A stretch of DNA of 64,000 bases from Bacteroidales bacterium (GTDB taxonomy: Bacteria > Bacteroidota > Bacteroidia > Bacteroidales > UBA932), in the NCBI GenBank assembly GCA_024401695.1, contig JAKSKN010000007.1:35764-99763 (forward strand), written 5' to 3'. The position numbers and the translations under genes were made by a program. The first letter of the stretch is position 1; each line of letters opens with the position of its first letter. Shown here one piece after another: positions 51,070-52,451 of this stretch. The notes beneath the pieces were generated by a model. It was not told the origin of the DNA. It made no database searches and worked only from the letters and a program-made list of their open reading frames with translations.

Positions 51070-52428
51070 TTAAAAAAGTTCTACTGCCTCAGATACTACA
51101 AAAGTGCTGCCACCAATGTAAACAAGGCTTCCGGGCACTCCAGCGGCCATTTTCTCTGCCATTCTGACACCATCTGCCACTGACGGCGCAGCGCAGGTGT
51201 GGAGGTCGGGACGCAACTTTGACAGGCGCTCCTTCAAGGCTTCGACCGGAAGAGAACGGCTGTTTGCAGGCGCAACCAGGAAATATTCGGCCCCGGCCGG
51301 CATCATCGGGGCTATGCCGTCGAGATCCTTGTCGGCCATCACGCCATATACGATGAACAGCGGCCTTCCGAGTGCGGAGAGTTTCTCGAAATTCAGTTTC
51401 AGGGCGGGTGGATTGTGGCCTATGTCGCAGATGGTCTCCGGTTCTGACCGGAGCTTTTCCCATCTGCCGCGGAAACCGGTGATGCGTGCAGTGTGTGCAA
51501 GTGCTTCGCGGTCGGCTTCTATGCCGAGCAGTTCCAGCGCGGCGGAGACGGTGCGCTGGTTGATGGCCTGGCACGGTCCGGTAAGGTCCAGGTCGATATC
51601 CGGGGACTCGAATTCGTCGGCGAAGAAAAGCGGGCAAGGTGCTTCCGCCGCCTGGGTCTCGAATACAGGTCCTGTCTCGTCGTCCCAACCCCAGACTACG
51701 GCGGGAACGCCGGGCTTGAAGATTCCGGCCTTTTCGCCCGCGATCCCGGCGCGGGTGTTGCCAAGCATCGCGCAGTGGTCGAGACCTATGCTGGTGATGA
51801 CGCTGAGTTCCGGGGTGATGATGTTCGTGCTGTCGAGCCGTCCGCCCAGGCCGACTTCAATCACAGCCACATCCACTTCCTGCTCCGCATACCACCAGAA
51901 TGCCATTCCGGTGGTTATCTCGAAGAACGACAGTCCGCTCAGGTTCTGTTCCGTGAGGAACGCGAAAACCGCCTCTTTTGGTATCATTTCAGCGTTTGGG
52001 AGTGAGTCTCTCTCTGCAGAAACTTCCGCTTCGCTCCATCCCTCCCACGCGGTGCGCGGGCCCCTCCCTCTGACGTGTCCGAGGGTGGACACGGTTTCTG
52101 CAGAGAGAGACTCACTCCCAAGTGATGAAATGATTTTGATGCGCTCCCGGAAGTCGATGAGGTGCGGAGAGGTGTAGAGTCCGACGCGCAGCCCGGTTGC
52201 GGCAAGCGCCGCCGCCAGCATCGAACTGACAGACCCCTTGCCGTTGGTGCCGGCCACGTGAATGGTCTTGAACTTGCGCCACGGGTGCCCCAGGGCGGCA
52301 TCGAAAGATTCCATACCGGCGAGGCCCGGCTTGTAAGCCCCCGCGCCGAAACCTACCTTCTGGACGGTAGGATGTTTTTCAAAAAGATCGGCAAGAAGCC
52401 GGTCGTATGATTGGGTGTTATATTTCAT
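51070..52428 (-). CDS. folC: Bifunctional folylpolyglutamate/dihydrofolate synthase with in-frame insertion
   Basis: 452-residue Mur-ligase-fold enzyme adding glutamates to folates. P-loop AGTNGKGSVSSMLAAAL, SPHLIDFRERI, the FFEITTGMAFWWYA motif, and VGLGGRLDSTN are present. Between RERIKI and NAEMIPKEA, where relatives have a two-residue turn, there is an extra ~46 residues encoded by a palindromic element (51983-52134). The frame is kept and both flanks read normally, so the gene may still work. ATG 52428 is chosen since a TTG at 52446 overlaps the promoter. Confidence 0.93.
   Translation of the reverse strand: MKYNTQSYDRLLADLFEKHPTVQKVGFGAGAYKPGLAGMESFDAALGHPWRKFKTIHVAGTNGKGSVSSMLAAALAATGLRVGLYTSPHLIDFRERIKIISSLGSESLSAETVSTLGHVRGRGPRTAWEGWSEAEVSAERDSLPNAEMIPKEAVFAFLTEQNLSGLSFFEITTGMAFWWYAEQEVDVAVIEVGLGGRLDSTNIITPELSVITSIGLDHCAMLGNTRAGIAGEKAGIFKPGVPAVVWGWDDETGPVFETQAAEAPCPLFFADEFESPDIDLDLTGPCQAINQRTVSAALELLGIEADREALAHTARITGFRGRWEKLRSEPETICDIGHNPPALKLNFEKLSALGRPLFIVYGVMADKDLDGIAPMMPAGAEYFLVAPANSRSLPVEALKERLSKLRPDLHTCAAPSVADGVRMAEKMAAGVPGSLVYIGGSTFVVSEAVELF
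51983..52134. mobile_element. Palindromic, in-frame inserted element inside folC
   Basis: Two inverted arms of 41 bases (51983-52023 and 52094-52134) of which 28 bases (51996-52023 / 52094-52121) are perfectly complementary, with three mismatches in the outer part. The 70-base centre holds a 7-bp perfect hairpin (CGTGTCC, loop GAGGGT, GGACACG at 52074-52093) and a small CGCG hairpin. It encodes no protein of its own but adds ~46 codons to folC without a stop. The form resembles the protein-coding palindromic repeats of Rickettsia and MITE-like repeats. No second copy was noticed in this window. Confidence 0.75.
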
Positions 52429-52443
52429 AGTTGCAACTGTTTC

Positions 52444-52451
52444 CAAATTTA
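52444..52451 (-). promoter_or_regulatory. -7 element of folC
   Basis: Minus strand TAAATTTG fits TAnnTTTG, 15 bases before the folC ATG; it decides against the upstream TTG start. No clear -33 box. Confidence 0.45.

Follow-up and report, generated by a model that had tools for sequence, protein, structure and literature searches.

Palindromic elements that lie in frame within genes are known mainly from Rickettsia and kin. The Rickettsia palindromic elements (RPE; Ogata et al.) are described, in the passages cited, as ~100–150 bp long and as in-frame insertions in protein genes that are unrelated to one another, and orthologues can carry different inserts at one locus (PMC10969869, PMC3767692, PMC6649704, PMC3733652), and truB of R. 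conorii is reported to be interrupted by RPE-1 (PMC3733652). Nematomorph mitochondria contain coding palindromes with perfect repeats of up to 284 bp, for which template switching is named as a possible mechanism in the cited account (PMC6649704). According to the sections used here, template switching between inverted repeats gives arm homogenisation and spacer inversion (PMC8604942) and can make and repair stems (PMC8794818). Among other short repeats, MITEs are present in Porphyromonas gingivalis (PMC4596501), and REPs are 20–40 bp long, most with a GTAG or CGTC tag (PMC3733652), as stated in the excerpts consulted.

Here, we analysed a palindrome within the folC gene of a Bacteroidales genome (G000), contained in a 64,000-nt stretch of DNA that was analysed as a whole and is referred to as the window. 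We consider it likely that the folC insert is a single copy of a palindromic element that is mobile but non-autonomous and that occurs in one Bacteroidales genus and a few other Bacteroidales. A pseudoknot core lies between long mirror arms, copies are found both between genes and in frame within them, and the corresponding sites of relatives are empty or partly deleted. The original prediction for this locus had likened the palindrome to RPE; this likeness holds for the mode of life (multiple copies and in-frame insertion), and we make no claim of membership in the RPE family.

The folC palindrome and its core

The host gene product is a folylpolyglutamate/dihydrofolate synthase, as judged by profile TIGR01499. 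The gene, the palindrome and its parts are located in the window as follows.

51070..52446, minus strand: folC open reading frame, 458 codons, likely start ATG at 52428; TIGR01499 (E 2.6e-78), Mur_ligase_M/C
51983..52134, minus strand: whole palindromic element, 152 nt, in-frame reading IISSLGSESLSAETVSTLGHVRGRGPRTAWEGWSEAEVSAERDSLPNAEMI; site empty in G304
52094..52134, minus strand: 5' arm (folC sense)
52130..52134, minus strand: native ATCAT, one outer end of the palindrome, also in the empty site of G304
52024..52093, minus strand: conserved 70-nt core, the dispersed repeat
52074..52093, minus strand: core hairpin 1, CGTGTCC / GGACACG with CCCTC in the loop (alignment and covariation)
52066..52070, minus strand: GAGGG, 3' strand of the pseudoknot, pairing with CCCTC of the hairpin 1 loop (covariation)
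52044..52060, minus strand: core hairpin 2, CCC..GGG with a variable tip (covariation)
52025..52037, minus strand: core segment GGAGCGAAGCGGA with the motif GCGAAGC (alignment)
51983..52023, minus strand: 3' arm (folC sense)
51983..51987, minus strand: native ATGAT, the other outer end of the palindrome, also in the empty site of G304

The two inverted arms (51983–52023 and 52094–52134) are 41 nt each and 93% complementary, with 38 of the 41 pairs matching, the innermost 28 perfect and a centre of 70 nt; arms, perfect stretch and centre were reproduced exactly as originally predicted. A scan of the window for inverted repeats with arms of at least 18 nt, no more than 300 nt apart, found six, of which this was the longest (the other five were 19–23 nt at 75–83%). 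The fold was strong on both strands, with a z of −11.8 for the plus strand as DNA and −8.95 for the minus strand as RNA, and none of 200 shuffles was as good in either case. Like a MITE, the folC element has inverted repeats at its ends and no gene of its own; it is 152 nt long, and most other copies span 112–220 nt.

Core structure was assessed in 29 aligned and oriented cores of G000 and relatives, from which a covariance model (R1) was built. Standard pairs made up 97.8% of cells across the 17 core pairs. Helix 1 (7 pairs) was paired in 94.5% of cells, with both-sided changes at 5 of the 7 pairs and one hairpin 1 pair unpaired in 9 of the 29 rows. The pseudoknot, in which CCCNN of the hairpin 1 loop pairs with downstream NNGGG, was paired in 100% of cells in the 29 sequences; two of its five pairs showed 12 both-sided changes each, and the other three were invariant. 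Hairpin 2 was also paired in 100% of cells over the five pairs counted, one of which showed 12 both-sided changes and three of which were invariant. The covariation score of the core was 0.38 vs 0.137 for shuffled alignments, a value reached by none of 500 shuffles and higher than that of all slid versions, and by the count of further pair types the core was not above shuffles (113 of 500 were as high). Because G–T pairs were retained in one direction only (G43–T62, in 16 of 29 rows; the other strand would have C–A), the folding strand of the core is probably the one read in the folC sense. The third segment, GGAGCGAAGCGGA, forms a proper hairpin in some copies only, for example GTCCGGC-GCA-GCCGGAC of L069, which folds as DNA (z −3.4), whereas the folC version alone does not. 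Its GCGAAGC presumably resembles very stable DNA mini-hairpins.

A variant of the core, with ~51 nt extra between hairpin 1 and the 3' strand of the pseudoknot, was seen in G371 (L183), G294 (L192) and G385 (L210).

As predicted, the host frame is open through the element, with no stop in the frame used. In an alignment of 30 FolC sequences the insert parts IKI from MIP, and the solved enzyme 1o5z matches the query up to residue 105 and then from residue 151 onwards, 10 residues separating the two aligned parts. An AlphaFold2 model of FolC had a mean pLDDT of 84.7, the insert being its low-confidence part: residues 101–140 had mean pLDDT values of 52, 35, 34 and 52 in ten-residue blocks, were modelled with two low-confidence helices and were flanked by strands 96–99 and 145–147. 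Such a predicted low-confidence stretch between two strands is as expected for an insert that loops out, the point for which the original prediction had suggested modelling FolC.

Dispersed cores, host genes and empty sites

The original prediction also proposed a genome search with the arm. The arm is not repeated: a 26-base piece was unique at up to three mismatches, and the arm was rejected as a dispersed repeat, only the two arms themselves being matched. It is the 70-base centre that is repeated, so a search with the arm would have led to the mobile-element idea being wrongly discarded. BLAST with the 70-nt centre found pieces elsewhere in G000, and R1 gave 13 matches there, in keeping with the multiple copies expected of a mobile element (E 1e-25 to 3e-5; eight below 1e-14 and five between 1e-8 and 3e-5, two of these five near contig ends). 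The closest relative found, G304, had six R1 matches, the sixth marginal (E 0.05). In a same-genus sample, 218 of 250 genomes matched R1 at E ≤ 1e-6; with at most 18 candidates scored per genome, copy numbers per genome are lower bounds. The host genus is probably Candidatus Cryptobacteroides. Under stricter filters, six of 393 genomes in an order-wide sample matched, four of them in other genera: G000 and G334 are of the same genus, G524 shares the family but not the genus, and G426, G576 and G606 are of other families. A 28-nt core pattern had no exact match in viral contigs, and the core had no blastn match in plasmids. Titles and abstract openings in open-licence sources held no description of such an element in Bacteroidales, Cryptobacteroides included.

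The best local matches to the folC copy in its own genome were 89% identical over 55 nt and 95% over 42 nt. Because the folC copy thus has no identical donor within its own genome, the copies there give no support for present-day movement in the folC lineage. G089 has 11 long near-identical copies (E below 1e-60) that share arms GTGCCGTTCTTG.. (L260–L267). Several of them are found where contigs end, which would fit recent activity and assembly breaks caused by the copies; this genome gave 36 matches when searched with its own element, and the surroundings were read for a minority of them.

Six of the eight strongest G000 copies, folC included, lie within genes. As identified by profiles, in-frame copies in G000 are hosted by truB, argS, a ThiF/TcdA-like gene, an arginase-like gene and ispG, a remnant is present in mtaB, and dnaX and atpG are hosts in G304. 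At least two forward and at least two reverse frames are used among genic copies. Gene frames run through the filled sites, and all 25 size differences at eight gene sites were multiples of three, although two of these were zero and many were not independent; the count left out the intergenic sites L088, L057 and L061, with L078 (131 vs 131 nt) uncounted. These frames bear on whether the element is excised from the mRNA in the manner of an intron, with FolC then made without the insert. Pairing of the arms would draw the two ends close and copies do lie in basic enzymes, but a removed element would need neither a kept nor an open frame; both therefore count against excision, which we find hardly credible.

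Copies outside genes are common, as an open frame of at least 60 codons on both sides was found at only 7 of the 27 best-scoring genus loci analysed. Selection for open frames was considered and found no support in the core, whose openness over six frames was not above shuffles (4.24 vs 4.26 open frames); whole elements were slightly more open (3.10 vs 2.71, no significance attached). Adaptation of the element to coding sequence is weak at best, and GC content and the survival of in-frame insertions would suffice to explain the pattern.

The conserved, covarying pseudoknot and the strong fold could also suit an RNA with a function for folC and the other hosts, such as an attenuator, a riboswitch-like RNA or a ribozyme. 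However, cores occur in either orientation with respect to the host gene and are flipped in place, the host genes are unrelated, just one of the 98 other folC loci scanned has a core, and no Rfam family came near its gathering score in 381 bases searched (two matches were far below), which makes a functional RNA very improbable. On our preferred explanation of a mobile element, in-frame insertions in tolerant loops would survive. The survival of frame-keeping insertions in such loops would thus make the element a hitch-hiker that has no regulatory role in folC.

Further short inserts of REP-like sequence seem to occur in frame. The folC loop of G006 (L026) encodes CHFERSREIS, mtaB of G341 (L208) carries GATTCTTCGCTGCGCTCAGAATGACA at the element's site, and the FolC of L312 has VILSEAKDL at another position in the protein; all three are presumably REP peptides.

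Close relatives were expected to lack the element in folC. Compared to the window, which has ATCAT-142 nt-ATGAT, the folC of G304 (83% identical over 906 nt) has an empty site, ATCAT-19 nt-ATGAT. The net difference of 123 nt (41 codons) corrects the gain originally put at ~46 residues to 41, and the loop of homologues, which had been thought to hold about two residues at this position, varies in length. In a survey of 126 folC loci (several genomes twice, 114 readable), the loop between two fixed motifs was 25–63 residues long in 112 readable loci, all non-carriers, vs 69 residues in the window and 93 in G027, the two carriers. A scan of 98 other folC loci with R1 (some genomes twice) gave a match in G027 only. 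The G027 copy occupies the same codons but has the opposite orientation and other arms, so the folC site was probably hit twice. The range of loop lengths among non-carriers might suggest an ordinary variable FolC loop, but at the DNA level the centre of the insert is a repeat of conserved structure that recurs at dispersed places; the dispersed copies refute this explanation, to which we attach practically no weight.

At ksgA, eight of nine inspected relatives have 3–15 nt where G015 has 132 nt, and the ninth, G132, has a different insert of 240 nt. Both arms are absent at the clean empty folC and ksgA sites, and thus belong to the insert. No clean target-site duplication was found at folC or ksgA, where the ends are blurred by divergence. 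Sites occupied in more than one species include mtaB, dnaX (G304, G011) and a gene that we take to be tilS (G023/G071, G011). Part of the presence/absence pattern is due to old insertions with later loss, because parts of the element are retained in G304 at tcdA and, as judged by eye, also at argS and truB; at atpG, G000 retains the arms and little core. For the pair G000 and G304, folC is the clean site, and the comparisons at ispG, mtaB and dnaX are poorly resolved.

At the tcdA site, L166 (G304) and L129 (G000) share a patch of ~200 nt that is almost identical, followed by 210 nt at 82%, which is possibly a local exchange.

Arm evolution and candidate mechanisms

Identity decreased from the core outwards. 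Among 73 copies with arms of at least 22 nt, mean identity of same-genome copy pairs was 0.81 in the core, 0.63 in the inner 10 nt of the arm and 0.54 in the next 15 nt, and that of between-genome pairs was 0.74, 0.54 and 0.43, respectively. Outer arms can diverge beside identical cores (L063/L064 were 47% and L275/L276 53% identical), and are common to the compared copies fully in G089 and partly in G177 and G227, where the G227 copies also share flanks. Sharing in these three genomes indicates that the arms at least partly travel with the core, and the idea that new arms are made from the target at every insertion was dropped on the same grounds. It also bears on an explanation in which the palindrome was built on the spot by template switching from native ATCAT..ATGAT, with only the core imported, by conversion. 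Consistent with an on-spot origin, native ATCAT and ATGAT flank the insert, ksgA of G143 has a bare 18-nt inverted duplication and no core, and outer arms often differ between copies with identical cores. Nevertheless, given the shared arms and the absence of arms from clean empty sites, we regard an on-spot origin as distinctly improbable.

Bare inverted duplications of native DNA lacking a core were seen at ksgA in both G143 (L187, 18 nt) and G132 (L212), and look like bare template-switch products.

The arms of the element evolve in concert. In 11 ortholog pairs from 10 sites, 318 arm pairs could be mapped (G017/G235, a twelfth pair, was computed but does not enter this total, 22 further arm pairs were unmappable, and alignment of strongly diverged arms is uncertain). 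Of these, 279 were unchanged, 26 were changed on one side and 13 on both sides. All 13 double changes were still Watson–Crick pairs (2.1 expected; Fisher p 1e-9), and the 26 one-sided changes comprised 17 that break the pair and 9 that give G–T. When the purD and arginase-like sites were omitted, eight double changes remained vs 0.9 expected (p 8e-8), with the inverted-core pair G019/G371 still inside this reduced set. Arm upkeep is incomplete, since 26 of the 318 pairs were changed on one side only and 17 were broken. Selection for pairing is a possible alternative cause of this upkeep.

The core was inverted in place between G000 and G304 at two of their three common sites (purD and arginase-like), and also between G019/G294 and G371 and between G019 and G385. 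At purD, the outer arms differ between G000 and G304, yet are complementary within each genome. Judged by eye, the right flank of G000 is similar to the outer right arm of G304, which would fit outward growth of the palindrome. Homogenised arms and an inverted spacer, the hallmarks of template switching, were thus both observed in the element. After insertion, polymerase template switching between the arms at replication would probably keep the arms complementary and flip the core, and the protein segment would probably keep being rewritten in this way.

A wider proposal, which we put forward tentatively and do not favour over its negation, is that of a self-structuring palindrome in which template switching copies arm to arm, extends the arms into the flanks and flips the core, resulting in ongoing rewriting of in-frame loops throughout the genus, with the conserved, strand-specific pseudoknot core serving as a handle for the moving enzyme, via single-stranded DNA or RNA. 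If true, a selfish element would be a long-lived generator of protein variation in basic enzymes.

For the insertion itself, a transposase supplied in trans may recognise the folded core strand; no transposase was identified as mobiliser. A more specific explanation is that of a REP/REPIN-type element moved by a RAYT (HUH, Y1_Tnp) transposase. Y1_Tnp matches (E ≤ 0.001) were present in 11 of 12 element-rich vs 3 of 10 element-free genomes (p 0.005, a value that ignores phylogeny and applies to 22 hand-picked genomes), and matches above the Pfam cut-off in 7 of 12 vs 1 of 10. The matches at E ≤ 0.001 lay mostly in frames of about 290–360 codons. Seven of eight such ORFs, three of the eight from element-free genomes, also matched REP_Tyr_transpos (E 1e-5 to 1e-12, all below the curated cut-off). 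In the part of the source cited, Bacteroidetes REP transposases of subclass 2.6 have 'atypical secondary structures' on their flanks, further copies of which lie at other places in the genome (PMC6006769), and it is because of this subclass that the RAYT lead was kept. However, no core was found in 20 loci (about 1.5 kb on each side) around 20 of 29 Y1_Tnp matches from 14 genomes, and four of six inspected loci (L382, L385, L386 and L397) had palindromes or repeats of their own, unlike the core. Furthermore, G000, with an assembly that is 97% complete, has a single Y1_Tnp match at E ≤ 0.001, an IS200/IS605-type transposase gene (L049; G000:C70:20115-20468). We therefore consider a RAYT-moved REP/REPIN rather unlikely, and the RAYT-like genes are a lead on the mobiliser that is only correlative.

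The RAYT-like genes at L382 and L397 (G107), L385 (G121) and L386 (G105), which are flanked by their own palindromes or tandem repeats, are probably separate Bacteroidales REPtrons.

Comparison with known systems

The element constitutes a separate family in gut Bacteroidales. It has a defined pseudoknotted core and was found in most genomes sampled from a large genus. It offers empty sites, remnants and repeated use of the same protein loops in hundreds of species, which makes testable how such elements move, how much proteins tolerate and how replication maintains palindromes. It also accounts for odd insertions, and probably some assembly breaks, in genomes of the genus.

Several described systems share features with this family. 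Like the prokaryotic MITEs of the cited account (PMC10969869), the element is short, non-autonomous and bounded by inverted repeats, but its centre and not its inverted repeats is best conserved, and no cognate transposon was found. REPs and REPINs are likewise structured palindromes that, in the cited descriptions, are sometimes located within genes (PMC3733652, PMC6006769); in contrast, the element described here is about 110–200 nt long and was not found beside a RAYT-like gene. Repeats shaped by template switching show the same arm homogenisation and spacer inversion in place (PMC8604942, PMC8794818), although the sections used concern short yeast repeats and RNA genes, as opposed to a mobile element that lies partly within enzymes. 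In nematomorph mitochondria, inverted repeats within coding sequence also stay complementary, whereas the present family has a dispersed core and a shared core is unmentioned in the portion of that account consulted.

Compared to RPE, as described in the passages cited above, the element is also a multi-copy palindromic repeat of comparable size inserted in frame in unrelated genes, and truB is a host in both. It differs in occurring in another phylum, in having a conserved pseudoknotted core with fast-evolving arms, and in using several frames and both orientations instead of one conserved peptide. In addition, RPE are described in the cited passage as losing repeat identity with time (PMC6649704), whereas the arms of the Bacteroidales element co-evolve in place, with 17 of 318 pairs broken. 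In view of these features, the Bacteroidales element is likened to the RPE in its mode of life and is not claimed as a member of their families.
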